Shown piece by piece: positions 21,270 to 29,499 of a stretch of DNA of 64,000 nucleotides (the first letter of the stretch is position 1; every line of letters starts with the position of its first letter). Where the stretch lies: assembly GCF_014201655.1 (NCBI RefSeq), contig NZ_JACHEX010000005.1, positions 1-64,000 on the forward strand, written 5' to 3'. This stretch comes from Thermosipho japonicus. GTDB lineage: Bacteria > Thermotogota > Thermotogae > Thermotogales > Fervidobacteriaceae. Under the pieces are notes generated by a model. It was not told where the DNA came from, made no database searches, and worked only from the letters and a program-made list of their open reading frames with translations. The translations under genes and the position numbers were made by a program.

Positions 21270-22385
21270 ATGGAAATATCTACATCACAGAAAATCCTCA
21301 ATGAATTGTTAATCAACGATAAAGTAAGTAGATCAGAACTTGAAAAAAAATTAAATATTACTCCTTCTACGTTGTCTTATACTATAAAAAAAATTAAAAA
21401 CCTTATTGAAATATATAAAGAACCATCATTTGGGCAAGGTAGACCTAAGCAGTACTTATCATTAAATAAAGATTATTGGATTTCACTGGGAGTCAAAATT
21501 GGAAGAGATTATGTAAATATTACAAAATTAAATGGACACTTTGAAATTCTTGAACGCTATACTTTTAAACTTAGTAAAAAAAATATTGGAAATGAAAACC
21601 TCTCAAAATTTTTAAATGATGCTTTTGAAAAAATTTCTGAAAAAGAAAATATCAAAGCTGTTGGAATGGCTTTTTCCGGAGAAGTTGTAGGTCAAAAAGT
21701 AAATTCAAAAATTCTAAAACTTGAAAACTTTTCTCCTGAAAAAATTATTAAAATTCACTTTAAAAATTCTGTGCACTCCATATTAAATGATGTTGAAGCA
21801 ATTGCAACCGAAGAATATATTAAATACAATGGAGAAGACATTTTAGTTATTAATTATGGTACTGGAATTGGTGCATGCTACTATGGAAATGGTGAACTCA
21901 AAAATAAGAAAAATAGAAAAATAATAGAAATAGGACATTTTTTTGCTGGAGGACATGAAAAGTGTTATTGTGGAAGTACAGGTTGTCTTGAAACTCTTGC
22001 TTCTGATTACGCTGTTTTGAAAAAGTATAAATACAGTGACCTTAAAATTATAGATTTTATAGAAAATGAAGAAAATTTTGAAAATGATCTAAACGAAGTA
22101 AGAACACTTTATAAAACCTTTAAAAAAAAGGCCGAGAATATTTATGAAGACACTTTTAACTATCTAACAATATTTATTTCAACAATTTTTAAAATTTTAG
22201 AGCCAAAAAAAGTTATTTTAACAGGTGAAGGTGTAACACCATGGTTTTCACAGATGTTACAAAAAAAGCTTATTAATTCAAATAAAATACCAATACCTAT
22301 AATTTTCCGCGGACTTGAAAATAACATTGAATTAGGCGCATCAATTAATGCCTTACAAAAATATATAATAACTAAAATTGAATAA
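21270..22385 (+). CDS. ROK-family transcriptional regulator (XylR/NagC type)
   Basis: An N-terminal winged HTH (about 1-60, SRSELEKKLNITPSTLSYTI) is joined to a ROK sugar-kinase-like domain. The latter has the NYGTGIGACYYG phosphate-binding loop, EIGHFF and the zinc motif CYCGSTGCLE. Such proteins repress sugar-use genes and bind a sugar or sugar phosphate. In the first part of the ROK fold the usual kinase motif DxGGT is replaced, so it is a regulator rather than an enzyme. No sugar transport genes lie next to it. The gene overlaps the convergent kinase gene phoR by 14 bases at the 3' end. Confidence 0.88.
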   Translation: MEISTSQKILNELLINDKVSRSELEKKLNITPSTLSYTIKKIKNLIEIYKEPSFGQGRPKQYLSLNKDYWISLGVKIGRDYVNITKLNGHFEILERYTFKLSKKNIGNENLSKFLNDAFEKISEKENIKAVGMAFSGEVVGQKVNSKILKLENFSPEKIIKIHFKNSVHSILNDVEAIATEEYIKYNGEDILVINYGTGIGACYYGNGELKNKKNRKIIEIGHFFAGGHEKCYCGSTGCLETLASDYAVLKKYKYSDLKIIDFIENEENFENDLNEVRTLYKTFKKKAENIYEDTFNYLTIFISTIFKILEPKKVILTGEGVTPWFSQMLQKKLINSNKIPIPIIFRGLENNIELGASINALQKYIITKIE

Positions 22386-23322
22386 TAACCCTTGTACCAA
22401 TTAAATAATTTGATTCAATAATCAACTTATAATTTAAAATATTACAAATATGTTTTACAATCGAAAGTCCCAACCCTGACCCTGTTGCCATTTTGGTGGC
22501 TTCTTTGCTTCTATAAAATCTTTGTGTAACTTTTTCTAAATCTTCTTTTTTTATACCAATTCCACTATCACTAATTATTATTTTATCTTTATATGCTTCA
22601 ATGAAAATTGTGGAATTATTGTATGAATATTTTATAGAATTAGAAAGCAAATTTTTAATTATTGTATAAAGCATAAAACCATCACTTTTATACTCTTTAT
22701 TTAAAATTTTTAAATCGAGCGTTAAATTTTTACTTTTCAATTTCTGTGAAAGTTCATCAATAACCTCATTTAATATTTTTTCAAAATCTACTATATCAAT
22801 CTTAGGTTTATACATTCCAAGTTCTAACATCGCAAGTACTTTCAACTGCTTTATAATTCTTTCCATTCTCTTTGAAGATTTTTCAATATCTTCAAGGGTT
22901 TCCAAAATATCTTTATTATTTTCATTAAGAGTATCCTTTAGGTAAATTGTATTAGCCTTAATAATTGAAAGTGGATTAAATAATTCATGGGATATTGCCG
23001 TAGTAAAATTAACTTTTGCCTCTTTAATTTTTATATATTCAGTTAGATCAGATAAGTAAAGTAAATTATCAAAAAATTTAATTTTTACATATCTCCAATC
23101 TGAAAACTCAAAAAAGTAAAGCCTTTCTTCAAGTTCAAAATTTTTTCTCTCTATTAAAAACTCAATTATTACATCAATATTTTTTGATGTAAATACATCC
23201 AAAATTTCAAAATTTTCTTTAAAACCATATTCCAATGCTTTATTATTTGCCTTTATTATTTTTAAACCATCAAGCATTATAATAGGTTCATCAAAATTTT
23301 GAAAAATTTCAAAATCAAACAT
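22372..23322 (-). CDS. phoR: Phosphate-regulon sensor histidine kinase without membrane segments
   Basis: This kinase sits at the end of a pst-phoU-phoB operon and is therefore the likely PhoR. It has a PAS-like N-terminal part (about 1-110), a HisKA domain with H in AISHELFNPLSI, and a HATPase domain with N in NLLSNSIKYS, SDSGIGIKKED and GSGLGLSIVK. No transmembrane helix is visible, unlike many PhoR proteins, so it is probably soluble and senses through Pst/PhoU. The H-box has FN where most kinases have RT. The second of two adjacent ATGs (23320-23322) has the better distance to GAGGGG. The start overlaps phoB by eight bases. Confidence 0.85.
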   Translation of the reverse strand: MFDFEIFQNFDEPIIMLDGLKIIKANNKALEYGFKENFEILDVFTSKNIDVIIEFLIERKNFELEERLYFFEFSDWRYVKIKFFDNLLYLSDLTEYIKIKEAKVNFTTAISHELFNPLSIIKANTIYLKDTLNENNKDILETLEDIEKSSKRMERIIKQLKVLAMLELGMYKPKIDIVDFEKILNEVIDELSQKLKSKNLTLDLKILNKEYKSDGFMLYTIIKNLLSNSIKYSYNNSTIFIEAYKDKIIISDSGIGIKKEDLEKVTQRFYRSKEATKMATGSGLGLSIVKHICNILNYKLIIESNYLIGTRVIIQF

Positions 23323-23983
23323 CATATCCCCTCGGATTAAATTTGTATCCTGCTCCTCTTATTGTTTTTATCCATGATTTTCCTATCTTATTCCTTATAT
23401 TACTTATATGAACATCAACAACTCTATCTGAAATAAATTCATCTCCCCAAACAGTATCTAAAATTTTTTCCCTTGAAAAAACATAATTTGGATTTTTTGC
23501 AAGTAAACATAAAACTTCAAATTCTTTAGCAGTCATCTCAACTTCATTATTGTCTAATTTAACAACATAATTTTCACAAAATATTTCTAATGGTCCATAT
23601 TTTATATATTCATTATTTTTTGAAACCCTTCTAAAATACGATTTTATCCTTGCAATAACTTCGCGTGGATTAAATGGCTTTGCAATATAATCATCGGCAC
23701 CAATTTCAAGACCATATATTTTATCATTATCGCTATCTCTTGCGGAAATAATAATTACTCCAAGATCTGGAAAATTAACCTTTATATCAGGTAATTCATT
23801 TATCGAAAAACCATCAGGAAGCATTATATCAAGCAAAACTAGATCAAATTTATCATTATATAACTTTTTACGAAAATTCACTATACTTCCTGCTTCGTCA
23901 ACTTCATATCCATGAGATTTTAAATATTTTTTCAAAATATTTCTTATTGATAAATCATCCTCAACTATTAGAATCCTTTCCAT
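23315..23983 (-). CDS. phoB: Phosphate-regulon response regulator, PhoB/PhoP type
   Basis: This 222-residue OmpR-family regulator has a receiver domain (ILIVEDD, phospho-acceptor in LVLLDIMLPDG, lysine in IAKPFNP) and a winged-helix output domain (EVEMTAKEFEVLCLLAKNPNYVFSR, and RVVDVHISNIRNKIG). It is placed between phoU and the kinase gene. It probably binds the repeats upstream of pstS proposed at 27961-27976. Its ATG has AAAGGAG and lies 23 bases inside phoU. Confidence 0.92.
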   Translation of the reverse strand: MERILIVEDDLSIRNILKKYLKSHGYEVDEAGSIVNFRKKLYNDKFDLVLLDIMLPDGFSINELPDIKVNFPDLGVIIISARDSDNDKIYGLEIGADDYIAKPFNPREVIARIKSYFRRVSKNNEYIKYGPLEIFCENYVVKLDNNEVEMTAKEFEVLCLLAKNPNYVFSREKILDTVWGDEFISDRVVDVHISNIRNKIGKSWIKTIRGAGYKFNPRGYDV

Positions 23984-24629
23984 AATTTATTATCTCCTTT
24001 ATTTCCTTTCCAGTTTCTATATAAATTATTTCTTCACATAAATTTGTTAAATGATCGCCTATTCTTTCTAAATCACGTGCTATTAGAATATTGTATATAA
24101 TAGATTCTTTATTATCAAGATCTTGTGATTTGTTTCTTATCAACTTTTCTAAATCATCTAAATTTTTGTCATCAAACCATATTTTTTTGGATAATTCAAT
24201 ATCTTTTTTTGAAAAAGCCAAAAATGTATCATGCAGCATTTTTAATACTATTCCAAACATTTCTTTTACTTCCCTTATCATCTTGTAATCAATTTTGTTC
24301 TTTTCAAAATAAATGACTTTTTCTGCACTATTGCAAGATAAATCAGCAATTCTTTCTAAATTATTCGAAAACTTAATCATCGTAATTATATATCTCAAAT
24401 CCTTCCCAATAGGATTATAGCGAGCTATAATATCGTAAACCTTCTCTTCTATTTGTCTATTTAATAAATCTATCTCATCGTCGCTATTAATAACATCTTT
24501 TGCAAGAGAAACGTCAAAAAATTCTAATGCCTCAATAGCATTTTCAAAAGATTGAGATACTAATGAAAGCATTTTAGAAATATAAGCTCTTAACATTGAA
24601 TATTCTTTTTCAAAATGTATAGTATCCAT
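23961..24629 (-). CDS. phoU: Phosphate transport regulator PhoU
   Basis: PhoU links the phosphate transporter to the two-component system and prevents activation when phosphate is plentiful. The 222-residue all-helical protein shows both three-helix PhoU repeats, each with a metal-binding E/D-rich motif: NLERIADLSCN (about 102) and DLERIGDHLTN (about 195). It lies between pstB and phoB. A good GGAGG precedes the ATG. Confidence 0.93.
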   Translation of the reverse strand: MDTIHFEKEYSMLRAYISKMLSLVSQSFENAIEALEFFDVSLAKDVINSDDEIDLLNRQIEEKVYDIIARYNPIGKDLRYIITMIKFSNNLERIADLSCNSAEKVIYFEKNKIDYKMIREVKEMFGIVLKMLHDTFLAFSKKDIELSKKIWFDDKNLDDLEKLIRNKSQDLDNKESIIYNILIARDLERIGDHLTNLCEEIIYIETGKEIKEIINYGKDSNS

Positions 24630-24643
24630 ATTTTATTCCTCCT

Positions 24644-25396
24644 CTAACCTATTTTACCATTTAAGTATTCTTCTGTTAATTTATTTTTTGGATTTCTTAC
24701 AACTTCAGATGTTTCTCCAAATTCAATAAGTTCTCCTTTATACATAAATGCAATGTAATCTGATATTCTAATTGCTTGTGCTATATTATGTGTCACTATA
24801 ACAATTGTATATTTTTCTGATAATCTTTCCAAAAGCGATTCTATTCTTTGAGTTGCTATTGGATCAAGTGCAGATGTTGGCTCATCTAAAAGTAAAACTT
24901 CTGGCTCAATAGCTAAAGATCTTGCAATACACAACCTTTGTTGTTGCCCTCCAGAAAGTGAATAAGCATTTTTATCAAGTTCATGCTTCACCTCATCCCA
25001 TAGTGCTGCTTTTTTTAAAGTTTTTTCAACAATTTTATTTATTTTACTTTTATCTTTAACTCCATGTATTTTTAATCCAAAAGCTATGTTTTCATAAATG
25101 CTCATTGGAAATGGAACAGGCCTTTGAAAGACCATTCCAACTTTCTTTCTCAAAACTGTTAAATCATCCACATCTGTATAAACGTCTTTTCCGTCAATTA
25201 AAAGTAATCCTTCAACTTTAAATCCTGGAATTTCATCATTTATCCTATTTATACTTCTTAAAAGAGTTGATTTTCCACAACCTGAAGGTCCTATTATTGC
25301 AGTAATTTTATTTTTATACACTGGAAAAGTCACATTATTAACAACCTTTTTTTCTCCATAATATGCTCCAAAATTTTTAAATTCAATTATTTCCAT
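24644..25396 (-). CDS. pstB: Phosphate ABC transporter ATPase PstB
   Basis: This ABC ATPase of 250 residues powers phosphate uptake. Visible motifs are Walker A GPSGCGKST, Q-loop FQRPVPFPMSIYENI (the FPMSIYENI form is typical of PstB), signature LSGGQQQRLCIARSLA, Walker B VLLLDEPTSALDP and the H-loop VTHN. It overlaps pstA by 14 bases and has a TAGGAGGT site. Confidence 0.96.
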   Translation of the reverse strand: MEIIEFKNFGAYYGEKKVVNNVTFPVYKNKITAIIGPSGCGKSTLLRSINRINDEIPGFKVEGLLLIDGKDVYTDVDDLTVLRKKVGMVFQRPVPFPMSIYENIAFGLKIHGVKDKSKINKIVEKTLKKAALWDEVKHELDKNAYSLSGGQQQRLCIARSLAIEPEVLLLDEPTSALDPIATQRIESLLERLSEKYTIVIVTHNIAQAIRISDYIAFMYKGELIEFGETSEVVRNPKNKLTEEYLNGKIG

Positions 25397-26204
25397 TACT
25401 AATACCTCCTATTTTATAAGCAATCAAGTAAATAACCAAAATCAAAATTAGAAGAAATGCTGCCGTTCCACTTGTCATCCACATTGATTCTTTCCCATAT
25501 GCAGAAATTAGATAGTATATATGAGTTGGCAATGTCATTACTGGAGAAAAAATATTCTTTGGCATACTAGTAGCATAAAAAACAGATCCTGTTACCAATA
25601 CTGGTGCAGTTTCTCCTAAAGTTCGCCCAAGTCCTAATAAAACACCCGTAGTAATTCTTGATTTTGATGCTTTTAATAACACTTTAAAAATAGTTTCGTT
25701 TCTTTTTGCCCCTAATGCATATGCTGATTCTTTAAGTTCTTTTGGTAAACTTGACATAGCTTCTTTTGTTGAATTTGAAATTATTGGTAAAGTCATTATA
25801 GAAAGTGTGAGAGATGCTGACAATATTGAAGTCCCAAATCCCAAAGCAATTGAAAACATAGCATATCCAAATAAACCATAAACTATAGATGGCATTCCAC
25901 TTAGTCCAGTAACTGCTAATTCTACTATTTTTGATATCTTCTTATCTTTATACTCTGCTAAAAATATTCCAGTAAATATTCCTAATGGAACTGAAAAAAT
26001 AACACTTGTAATAATAATATAAATACTGCCAACTATTGCTGGAAATATTCCACCTTGTCTCATCCCATTTTCTGGATACTTTGTAAAGAAATCTAAAGAA
26101 AAATATTTTACCCCATTTGCTAAAACTTCTATAATTACAAATACAACGAAAATTACCACAATATACGACAAAATCTTTAAGATAATTTTTGCAAATTTAT
26201 CCAT
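25383..26204 (-). CDS. pstA: Phosphate ABC transporter permease PstA
   Basis: This 273-residue permease has six predicted membrane helices. It includes the EAA-type motif KELKESAYALGAKRNETIFKV in full, which contacts the PstB ATPase, and the PstA-typical GMRQGGIFPAIVGSIYI. It overlaps pstC by eight bases and pstB by 14 bases, as expected for subunits made in fixed ratio. Confidence 0.94.
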   Translation of the reverse strand: MDKFAKIILKILSYIVVIFVVFVIIEVLANGVKYFSLDFFTKYPENGMRQGGIFPAIVGSIYIIITSVIFSVPLGIFTGIFLAEYKDKKISKIVELAVTGLSGMPSIVYGLFGYAMFSIALGFGTSILSASLTLSIMTLPIISNSTKEAMSSLPKELKESAYALGAKRNETIFKVLLKASKSRITTGVLLGLGRTLGETAPVLVTGSVFYATSMPKNIFSPVMTLPTHIYYLISAYGKESMWMTSGTAAFLLILILVIYLIAYKIGGISNGNN

Positions 26205-27057
26205 ATGTTTTCCAGCTCCTTAACTTTGATATATAAGTTAAGCACAAAGAAATTACTAATAGAATTAAACCAGCTAGGAATAATGAATGATAATGCATAC
26301 TTCCAACCCCTGCCTCGCCAATTTCACTAGCTATAGCTGCCGTTAAAGGTTTTATAGGATCAAAAAATGAAGTAGGAATCATTGCAGCTCCTCCTCCAAC
26401 CAATAAAACTACCATTGTTTCTCCTATTATCCTATTAATTGTTAAAATCGTTGAGTTAATTAATCCAGAACGTGATGCCAAAGTTGTAATTTTTAATGTT
26501 GTAATAAATTTAGAAACTCCTAAAGAAAGTGAACTTTCAATCAATTCTTTCGGAACACTGTCTAAAGAATCTGTCATAAGTGAAACGGAATAAGGAAGTG
26601 AAAGCAAAGAAAGGCCAATAACTGCAAGGAGAAAATTCTCAGTAGACCACACACCAAAATTCAAAAATATTGGTGAAATGTAAAATACCAAAAACATCCC
26701 AATTATAACAGATGGAATCCCAGACAAAATACTAATAATAAATTTAATGAATCTCTTTTCAAAACCACTTGAATAAGTATGAAGATAGAATGATATAAAA
26801 TAACCAATTGGAATAGTAATAATTGATGAAACTAATGTTACAAGTAAAGTATCAACAATTAGAGCTAACATACCAAATTCAGGAGGATCATACGTTGGAT
26901 ACCAATAAATGCTCATCAACGGTTTTAACCTTAGTTCAACAATTGCTGGCAATGCTTCTTTAAATATAAATACTATTAAGAGAAAAAGCGCTGTGATGGA
27001 CAACAGCGCAAAAAAGTATATTAAAAACATCTGAAAATAATACTTAAAAGCCCTCAT
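26197..27057 (-). CDS. pstC: Phosphate ABC transporter permease PstC
   Basis: The partner permease of PstA, 286 residues with six membrane helices and the coupling motif PKELIESSLSLGVSKF. The extracellular loop MSIYWYPTYDPPEFGML and IPSVIIGMFLVFYI are typical of PstC. It starts 11 bases after pstS and has an AGGGGGT site. Confidence 0.94.
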   Translation of the reverse strand: MRAFKYYFQMFLIYFFALLSITALFLLIVFIFKEALPAIVELRLKPLMSIYWYPTYDPPEFGMLALIVDTLLVTLVSSIITIPIGYFISFYLHTYSSGFEKRFIKFIISILSGIPSVIIGMFLVFYISPIFLNFGVWSTENFLLAVIGLSLLSLPYSVSLMTDSLDSVPKELIESSLSLGVSKFITTLKITTLASRSGLINSTILTINRIIGETMVVLLVGGGAAMIPTSFFDPIKPLTAAIASEIGEAGVGSMHYHSLFLAGLILLVISLCLTYISKLRSWKTYG

Positions 27058-27068
27058 TTATTTACCCC

Positions 27069-27890
27069 CTAAAATCCATATGCAGAAACATATCCTGCTT
27101 TTTCTACTAAATCTTGTCCTTTTTTAGAAACTGCAAAATTAACATATTTTTTAATGAGATCATCAACTAGGTATCCATTTGATGCATCAACAAACATGTA
27201 CAATGGTCTTGAAATTGGATAGGTTCCTTCTAAAATATTTCTTTTAGTCGGTAAAACACCATCTACTTTTAAAACTTTAACATCTTCTGTAACATACCCA
27301 ATTCCAGTATAGGCAATTGCATATGGATTATTTTTTACAGATTCAATTTCAAATTGAGTACTTTCAACCATTCTAACCCATGGAGCCATTTTTTCTTTAT
27401 TCAAAACTTTATTTTCAAATGTTTCAAAAGTTCCAGATGCCGTATTTCTTGAATAAATTACTATCTGCTTTTTAGGTAAATTTGGATCAACTTGACTCCA
27501 GTATCTTATTTTTCCAGTGTATATATCTTTCAAAGTATCTATTGATATATTTTCTATTCCAAGATTTTTACTTACAATTACTGCTATACCATCATAACCA
27601 ACAATAATAGGTACAAAATATTTTTTTATATTATGCATTTTTTCAATTTCACTTTCTTTTAACCACCTACTTGAATTTGCAATATCTGCTGTCCCGTTAA
27701 ATAAGGCTGCAATACCAGTCGATGAACCTGCTCCTTCAAGCGTTATCTCCATATCTGGATACATCTTTTTTAACTCTTCTATCCAAAGTTGAGCAACTGG
27801 GAAAATAGTGTTTGAACCCTTAATTACCAAAGTTCTTGAAAATGCAAAAAACACCAACAACAATGCAAAAATGACAAAAATCTTTCTCAT
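27069..27890 (-). CDS. pstS: Phosphate ABC transporter substrate-binding protein PstS
   Basis: This periplasmic phosphate-binding protein, 273 residues, has a signal peptide (RKIFVIFALLLVFFAFS) and phosphate-contact motifs: KGSNTIFP, EGAGSSTGIAALFNGTADIANSSR (first 20 residues define the site), and SRNTASGTFETF. The true start is the ATG at 27888-27890; a GTG nine bases upstream lies inside the ribosome-binding site AGGAGGTG. That site is in turn part of a hairpin (27900-27923), so translation may be controlled by RNA folding. It is the first gene of the pst-pho operon. Confidence 0.95.
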   Translation of the reverse strand: MRKIFVIFALLLVFFAFSRTLVIKGSNTIFPVAQLWIEELKKMYPDMEITLEGAGSSTGIAALFNGTADIANSSRWLKESEIEKMHNIKKYFVPIIVGYDGIAVIVSKNLGIENISIDTLKDIYTGKIRYWSQVDPNLPKKQIVIYSRNTASGTFETFENKVLNKEKMAPWVRMVESTQFEIESVKNNPYAIAYTGIGYVTEDVKVLKVDGVLPTKRNILEGTYPISRPLYMFVDASNGYLVDDLIKKYVNFAVSKKGQDLVEKAGYVSAYGF

Positions 27891-27899
27891 AAGAAACAC

Positions 27900-27923
27900 C
27901 TCCTGGTTTTTGGTCTCCAGGAG
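27900..27923 (-). promoter_or_regulatory. Hairpin masking the pstS ribosome-binding site
   Basis: In the minus-strand RNA, CTCCTGG (27923-27917) can pair with CCAGGAG (27906-27900) around a ten-base A-rich loop. The right arm contains the Shine-Dalgarno core of pstS, ten bases before the ATG. A GC-rich seven-pair stem here would hide the site. Its function depends on where transcription begins, which I can only guess. Confidence 0.45.
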
Positions 27924-27960
27924 TATTATCTAAAATATACATTTTACTTTTTTTTAGAAA

Positions 27961-27976
27961 TATTAAGAAATGTTAA
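27961..27976 (-). promoter_or_regulatory. Candidate Pho box upstream of pstS
   Basis: On the minus strand, TTAACA (27976-27971) and TTAATA (27966-27961) are direct repeats with a ten-base period. They resemble the TT(A/T/C)ACA repeats bound by PhoP in Firmicutes. They lie 71 to 86 bases before the pstS start. Weak -10 candidates (TATATT near 27934-27939, GATAAT at 27925-27930) follow, with no -35 consensus, as is usual for an activated promoter. Confidence 0.4.
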
Positions 27977-28161
27977 GAGATAAAGGAGTGCTATATTAAG
28001 GCTGGTATGAAAATTATAATGAAAGCCTAAAAATACTGATGAACTTTCATAAAGTAAAAATGCAAATAAATACTAAAAGTATAAATTACTCATACATAAG
28101 CAGTCTTTCTGTATTTGCAGATAAAACTGTTAGCAATGTAAATTACTTAAAAAAATGAAAA

Positions 28162-29499
28162 TCATAGGTACCACTTTTTTAAAATTTTTTGAATTTTTTC
28201 AAAACCATTATATGGGGGATATTTTACGTTAATTTCAAACTTTCCTCTAAAAAATACCGGTTTTAAGTGTGAAAATGTTTCAAAACTATATCTACCATGA
28301 TACCTTCCTATTCCGCTTGTTTTTATTCCTCCAAAAGGAAAATTTTCAGGAACAAAATGAGAAATTGTGTCATTTACACTTATCCCACCAGCTTGAATTT
28401 TATTAATAACATTATTAACAAAAGCTTGGTTATTCGAAAATACATAAAGAGACAAAGGATATGGATTTTTACTAATTATTTCAAATATATCTTTTTCATC
28501 TTTAAATGTAATTATAGGCAAAATGGGACCAAATATTTCTTCACTCATTAATGAATCGTTTATTTTCACATCATCTACAATGGTAGGTTCAAACCTTCTT
28601 TCGTATGCTTTCCCTCCAAAAATTATTCTTCCATTTGTATTATTTAATAAATTTTTTAGCCTTTTTACATGCCTATCATTAATTATATAAGCCATCTTAC
28701 TTTGAAAATCTTCAAAATATTTAATTAACCTTTCAACTAGTTGCTCCTTAATACTTTCTTCAACAATTAAGTAATCAGGAGAAATACATGTTTGCCCTGC
28801 ATTTAATAATTTTCCCCAAGCGATTCTTTTAGCTGAAAGTTCTAAATCACAAGTTGAATCTACAATAGTTGGGTTTTTTCCTCCAAGCTCAAGTGTTACT
28901 GGAATTAGTCTTTCAGATGCTTTTTTCATCACATATTTTCCTACACCTGGACTTCCTGTAAAAAATATATAGTCAAAATCTTGATCTAAAAGTTTTTTAG
29001 AAATTTCTGCATCTCCTGTAACTACTTTTATATAATCTTCTGAAAAATACTTTGTAATCATTTTTTCTAAAACTTTAGTAACATTTTCTGAATATTCAGA
29101 AGGTTTTAAAACAACACAATTTCCAGATGCAATAGCTCCAACTAAAGGAGTTAGTGTTAAATTTACAGGATAATTCCAAGGCGAAATTATTAAAGTTACA
29201 CCATAGGGTTCAGGAATTAAAAAACCTTTTCCAGATTGGTTCTCAATACCAACTTTTACTCTTTTAGGCTTTGAAAGTTTTTTTAAATTCTTAATAAAAT
29301 ATTTTATTTCTCTATAAACAATAAATATTTCTGTCAAAAAAGCTTCTTCTTTTGATTTATTTAAATCAAGAAAAAGAGCACTATATAAATCTTCTTCAAA
29401 TTCTTCCAATGCATGTTTTAAAATTTTTAATTGATTAATCCTAAACTCTAAATTGTATGTTTTTCCAGTACTGAACAATTCTTTTAAAGAATTTATCAA
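28162..29499 (-). CDS. NAD(P)-dependent aldehyde dehydrogenase (class 3-like)
   Basis: A 445-residue aldehyde dehydrogenase. Visible sites are the cofactor motif SPWNYPVNLTL, FFTGSPGVGK, the catalytic glutamate in LELGGKNP and the catalytic cysteine in NAGQTCISPDYLI. The C-terminal NFPFGGIKTSGIGRYHG is typical. The short N-terminus and absence of the usual extra 40 residues place it with the class 3/YwdH/fatty-aldehyde group. Start is a TTG with GGGAGTGG. It overlaps the acetyltransferase gene by four bases. The substrate is unknown. The 260 bases between it and pstS contain the pst leader and nothing else that I can identify. Confidence 0.92.
   Translation of the reverse strand: MINSLKELFSTGKTYNLEFRINQLKILKHALEEFEEDLYSALFLDLNKSKEEAFLTEIFIVYREIKYFIKNLKKLSKPKRVKVGIENQSGKGFLIPEPYGVTLIISPWNYPVNLTLTPLVGAIASGNCVVLKPSEYSENVTKVLEKMITKYFSEDYIKVVTGDAEISKKLLDQDFDYIFFTGSPGVGKYVMKKASERLIPVTLELGGKNPTIVDSTCDLELSAKRIAWGKLLNAGQTCISPDYLIVEESIKEQLVERLIKYFEDFQSKMAYIINDRHVKRLKNLLNNTNGRIIFGGKAYERRFEPTIVDDVKINDSLMSEEIFGPILPIITFKDEKDIFEIISKNPYPLSLYVFSNNQAFVNNVINKIQAGGISVNDTISHFVPENFPFGGIKTSGIGRYHGRYSFETFSHLKPVFFRGKFEINVKYPPYNGFEKIQKILKKWYL

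Follow-up and report, generated by a model that had tools for sequence, protein, structure and literature searches.

A putative phosphate-starvation promoter with operator repeats of 10-bp period before the pstS operon of Thermosipho japonicus

What controls the phosphate-uptake operon that begins with pstS in Thermosipho japonicus? In the window, by which we mean the whole 64,000-nucleotide stretch of DNA that was analysed, the minus strand upstream of pstS carries TTAACA/TTAATA repeats with a ten-base period, as well as the complementary segments CTCCTGG and CCAGGAG, the latter of which includes the core of the Shine-Dalgarno (SD) sequence; both elements are in the DNA as a preliminary description had claimed. 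It read them as double control of phosphate uptake, with a PhoP/PhoB-type box acting on transcription and an SD-hiding stem acting on translation. The transcriptional half of this proposal is strongly supported by conservation, by a fixed promoter geometry and by a second site before a ugpB-like gene, while the translational half is not supported. We consider it very likely that the pstSCAB-phoU-phoB-phoR operon has its phosphate-starvation promoter here, where a PhoB-type regulator would act on 10-bp repeats and transcription would start at G27918 (Table 1).

Table 1. Features of the pstS promoter region and of the operon behind it, with positions in the window.
Feature	Position	Strand	Remarks
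Pho-type repeat unit 1, CTTAACA	27971..27977	-	About -59 to -53; TTAACA at 27976-27971; from sequence and conservation in relatives
Pho-type repeat unit 2, CTTAATA	27961..27967	-	About -49 to -43; TTAATA at 27966-27961; exactly 10 bp from unit 1
Possible degenerate units over the -35 region	27942..27957	-	CTAAAAA at 27957-27951; A27953 is column 25 and A27942 column 36
-10 hexamer GATAAT	27925..27930	-	Columns 48-53; A49 and T53 in 16/16
5' arm CTCCTGG	27917..27923	-	About -5 to +2; mostly upstream of the predicted start
Predicted transcription start, G	27918	-	Column 60; G60 in 13/16 and 18/19; distance to the -10 is 7 bp, the value mapped in T. maritima
Loop AGACCAAAAA	27907..27916	-	
3' arm CCAGGAG	27900..27906	-	Overlaps the SD sequence
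SD sequence AGGAGG	27899..27904	-	
pstS, phosphate-binding protein	27069..27890	-	ATG at 27890; TIGR02136 above cut-off
pstC-like permease	26197..27057	-	Best match TIGR02138, below cut-off
pstA permease	25383..26204	-	TIGR00974 above cut-off
pstB ATPase	24644..25396	-	TIGR00972 above cut-off
phoU	23961..24629	-	TIGR02135 above cut-off
phoB-like response regulator, presumed repeat binder	23315..23983	-	Receiver and Trans_reg_C; PhoB models score best in NCBIfam, below cut-off
phoR-like sensor kinase	22372..23325	-	HisKA and HATPase_c; best NCBIfam match PhoR, below cut-off

On the minus strand CTTAACATTTCTTAATATTTC starts at 27977, and the repeats CTTAACATTT-CTTAATA (27977-27961) head the operon. 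Written as the degenerate box CTTAAYATTTCTTAAYA, the pattern has a single perfect match in the window, and a scan of the whole genome (1,917,137 bases) likewise gives just one, at the pstS site. Looser matches occur at chance level, with 7 in the window at three mismatches (6.2 expected) and 17 in the genome at two mismatches (16 for the reversed pattern); since the two-mismatch matches of the genome are as frequent as this reversed control, we rejected them as regulon members. The minus-strand repeats are a putative Pho-type operator. The phoB-like protein of the same operon exceeds the cut-offs of PF00072 and PF00486 and misses those of the PhoB equivalogs, and its receiver and winged-helix effector domains are those of the PhoB/OmpR family. 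Tandem direct repeats before phosphate-uptake genes, together with a linked PhoB/PhoR-type pair, make the region a putative Pho-regulon promoter in the broad sense.

The preliminary description had proposed to check whether the repeats are kept upstream of pstS in relatives, and in many of them they are. Of 61 genomes searched, 45 have a PstS match, and 44 of these supplied the 45 pstS upstream regions compared (G038 was left out, and G060 contributes two). A TTAAYA pair at a spacing of exactly 10 is found in 23 of the 44 regions used for counting spacings (the G018 region is short), as compared to a mean of 0.04 in mononucleotide shuffles. At spacings of 7, 8, 9, 11, 12, 13, and 14 the pair occurs in none of the 44, the shuffles giving 0.01-0.05 over the spacings. 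The box CTTAAYATTTCTTAAYA is present with at most one mismatch in 23/45 regions and has more than one mismatch in 22/45, that is, it is not universal.

The box also stands in a fixed relation to a promoter. In an alignment that was anchored solely on the box and reduced to 16 non-redundant sequences, the columns outside the box that exceed 0.8 bits are A25 (14/16), A36 (16/16), the hexamer columns 48, 49, 51, 52, and 53, and G60. The hexamer corresponds to a -10 element (G48 12/16, A49 16/16, A51 15/16, A52 13/16, T53 16/16), and G60 occurs in 13/16, the other three being Thermotoga-type rows with G at column 61. The best column within 41-65 reaches 1.70 bits, and none of 500 jittered anchorings exceeds 1.28. 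A25 and A36 recur in all 19 pstS sites found later, and A36 is also present in 6/9 unrelated AT-rich sites. In a study of T. maritima, mapped starts lie 7 bp from the -10 and one peak of leader length is at 26-32 nt (PMC3636130); on these grounds we infer that pstS transcription starts at G27918 with a 28-nt leader. On this strand, no promoter with both hexamers was detected by a sigma70 scan covering 27800-28300, as expected if the promoter is activator-dependent.

In two families, f2 (9 regions) and f8 (3 regions), the units are degenerate, and a 10-base period fits them as well. The f2 regions preserve the -10 poorly, and 6/9 have pyrimidine-G (YG) at columns 59-60; the rows of this comparison were anchored on TTAAA, so the TTAAA columns are conserved by construction. 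By eye, an apparent response-regulator gene starts divergently from pstS in f2 genomes such as G022, G030, and G034, so that one operator region may serve both genes.

We scanned 103 genomes of the phylum for the box plus the -10, with columns 59-60 left free, and found 56 places in 44 genomes, whereas the reversed pattern gave 16 matches. By position or BLASTP, 43 of these places are followed by pstS, 3 by ugpB-like genes, and 1 by pstC, the other 9 being elsewhere; among the 43, the G021 site is a probable one, its gene being cut by the contig end and without a BLASTP match. The 34 places with zero mismatches comprise 32 pstS sites (G021 included) and 2 ugpB-like sites. The free columns provide a test of the predicted start region, as YG is present at 18/19 newly found pstS sites, many of which come from close relatives and are therefore not 19 independent events, versus 0/9 unrelated sites, a class defined by the lack of an ORF in reach matching eight reference proteins and including two pairs of near-duplicates; the upstream background is 3.7%. 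The dinucleotide is CG at the pstC site of G057 and CA, which is not YG, at the ugpB site of G088. Because the box was defined on pstS, its recurrence before pstS is partly built in, and independent evidence comes from the sites at ugpB-like genes and pstC. The pstC site (L116, G057:C335:7057) is a Pho-type promoter of the same geometry directly before the gene; the box in the pstS region of G057 is poorer. Five one-mismatch box matches in relatives (L091, L093, L102, L114, L115) are absent from the box-plus-minus-10 search and, judged by translations, have no pst or ugp gene behind them; they were rejected as regulon sites and treated as chance.

In the genome of the window, the full pattern including YG has two places with zero mismatches (pstS and the ugpB-like gene), none with one mismatch, and 10 with two mismatches; the reversed control has 11. 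The second full Pho-type promoter (G000:C3:50404-50463; L073, L163) lies about 200 nt upstream of the ugpB-like gene, whose product has UgpB as its best NCBIfam match (242 bits at E 7.4e-72, short of the 411-bit cut-off). In E. coli ugp is a Pho operon (PMC4415409). Box matches with at most one mismatch occur at 2/20 other ugpB loci, the remaining 18/20 being above one mismatch; the locus of G088 has a clear Pho box, and that of G007 a degenerate one in which the -10 and TG match. A TATAAT-like element also lies close to the ugpB-like gene of G000, as if there were two promoters.

The PhoP boxes of Bacillus subtilis consist, in consensus, of TTAACA/TTAATA-like hexamers in tandem. The repeats here resemble them, and they also resemble the PhoB-dependent promoters of E. 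coli, where direct repeats in tandem, each with about 7 conserved bases, precede a -10 at pst and ugp genes and a pst-phoU-phoB-phoR gene set is present. The pho box is defined as two 11-nt direct repeats of 7 conserved plus 4 nucleotides, with similar 11-nt units described for B. subtilis (PMC4415409), and in E. coli it usually replaces the -35 (PMC4971064). In contrast, the period here is 10 (23/44 regions, with 11 in none), only two units are strong, and these end about 30 bp before the -10 rather than replacing the -35, with weaker conserved A columns in between. As both 11-nt units and replacement of the -35 are lacking, we do not file the region as an E. coli-type pho box. A Pho box upstream of the -35 is described for the pdtA promoter of P. 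aeruginosa, in which repeats at -40 to -45 and -50 to -56 were mutated (PMC4971064); pdtA depends on the ECF sigma factor VreI, whereas the -10 here is of the housekeeping type. The period of 10 instead of 11 and the position at -59 to -43 point to a lineage variant; the region would work like a pho box, as a Pho-regulon promoter with a lineage-specific operator.

In the mechanism that we propose, at low phosphate the PhoB-type regulator encoded in the same operon, in its phosphorylated form, would bind head-to-tail to the direct repeats CTTAAYA-NNN-CTTAAYA at about -59 to -43 and perhaps extend over the degenerate units across the -35 region. The bound regulator would recruit RNA polymerase to a promoter with the -10 GATAAT and without a recognisable -35, and transcription from G27918 would yield a 28-nt leader that does not contain the 7-bp stem. 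The departure from the textbook period of 11 bp suggests that the stacking of the DNA-binding domains on DNA may differ.

What, then, of the stem? When the 47 nt preceding the SD were shuffled by mononucleotide 20,000 times, 0.035% of the shuffles had a perfect stem of at least 7 bp covering at least 4 SD bases. At a single locus such a stem is unusual, but the comparison took in 45 regions. Folded from the 5' arm on at 65 C, the RNA reaches -5.4 kcal/mol with an SD pairing of 0.86, while from the predicted +1 it reaches -0.2 kcal/mol with 0.38 (0.32 at 75 C). A start at G27918 would leave in the mRNA only GG of the 7-nt arm; since the predicted start lies inside the hairpin, the 7-bp stem probably does not form in the normal pstS message. 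A start downstream of 27917, which the preliminary description had named as incompatible with the stem, is thus closely approached by the predicted one. Among the 45 regions, a stem of at least 7 bp over the SD is present in three, namely those of the window genome, a near twin, and another species of the genus (G000, G001, and G002), 4-5 bp are found in four, and the other 38 have none (CCTGG/CCAGG in G012 covers too little of the SD to be counted). The stem is not a conserved leader structure.

One reading gives the stem a role that is compatible with the Pho-type promoter. Transposase genes of IS10 and IS50 are shielded against outside transcription by a hairpin arm that lies upstream of the start and covers the ribosome site in read-through RNA only. 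Similarly, the promoter arm here could hide the SD only in transcripts entering from the upstream co-directional gene, leaving Pho-started messages translatable; such protection is unlikely in our estimate, and it is an addition to the preferred explanation, not an alternative to the operator. The gene concerned is no transposon gene and the read-through is hypothetical. The aldehyde-dehydrogenase-like gene upstream is indeed co-directional, and a terminator between them was not detected. With 25 nt upstream of +1 included, SD pairing rises by at least 0.3 in 4/5 box-bearing genomes in which the ORF is co-directional and no terminator was detected (G000, G001, G002, and G051, not G007) and in 0/5 with a detected terminator. 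A script took the gene orientation from the ORF ends; the terminator script overlooks a palindrome in front of the G047 box, and only inspection by eye showed terminator-like hairpins ahead of the boxes of G087 and G089. However, the comparison was made post hoc and draws on about three lineages. SD pairing also rises in G005 and G017, whose neighbour is divergent, although the effect on energy is weak there; no such rise occurs at any of the 19 pstS sites found later, and at 37 C the +1 message already pairs the SD to 0.68 through another fold. A search for read-through protection of transposase genes found no description in the portions of the literature covered. If real, an anti-Shine-Dalgarno arm at -5 to +2 would let the start site alone decide whether an mRNA is translatable, and a cellular metabolic operon would carry such a device inside its promoter, tending to stand where a terminator is missing.

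Less probable still is that the repeats are bound by another OmpR-family regulator and not by the PhoB-type protein of the operon. The wider OmpR/PhoB family, for example PmrA, typically has tandem repeats of the CTTAA type, and the regulator of the operon falls below the PhoB cut-offs, both of which fit this possibility. The sites are nevertheless concentrated before phosphate and glycerol-phosphate uptake genes, and the regulator and kinase genes are in the same operon, which argues against another regulator.

Very improbable is a leader that folds CTCCTGG onto CCAGGAG and is opened by ligand or temperature, adding translational control to the Pho operator: the stem exists, is rare in shuffles, is stable if transcribed from the arm, and is retained with 7 bp in a shifted register in G002, but the predicted +1 removes five of the seven arm bases, the stem is confined to three regions, and Rfam at gathering scores finds only a tRNA in the window and no family at the hairpin. 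Together with the weak SD pairing from the predicted +1 at 65-75 C, this led us to reject riboswitch or thermometer control, which the preliminary description had entertained, as unlikely.

We noticed no paper on a Pho box of Thermotogota in the parts of the open literature searched, and the word PhoB occurs 0 times in the main texts of RegPrecise 3.0 (PMC3840689) and of the T. maritima sugar-regulon paper (PMC3750489). The Pho-type promoter proposed here offers a testable, phylum-wide model of the phosphate-starvation promoter of Thermotogota, with an operator of 10-bp period, a fixed distance to the -10, and a conserved predicted start. Further upstream, two other patterns were seen by eye. 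In f1 genomes such as G005, G011, G015, G016, and G017 (L029, L036, L031, L022, and L026), a palindrome TTGGAA-N3/4-TTCCA lies tens of bases upstream of the Pho box, and in the Thermotoga-type genomes G033 and G029 (L009 and L010) several CGTTCT-N-AGAACG inverted repeats lie upstream of the box, perhaps operators of a neighbouring gene.
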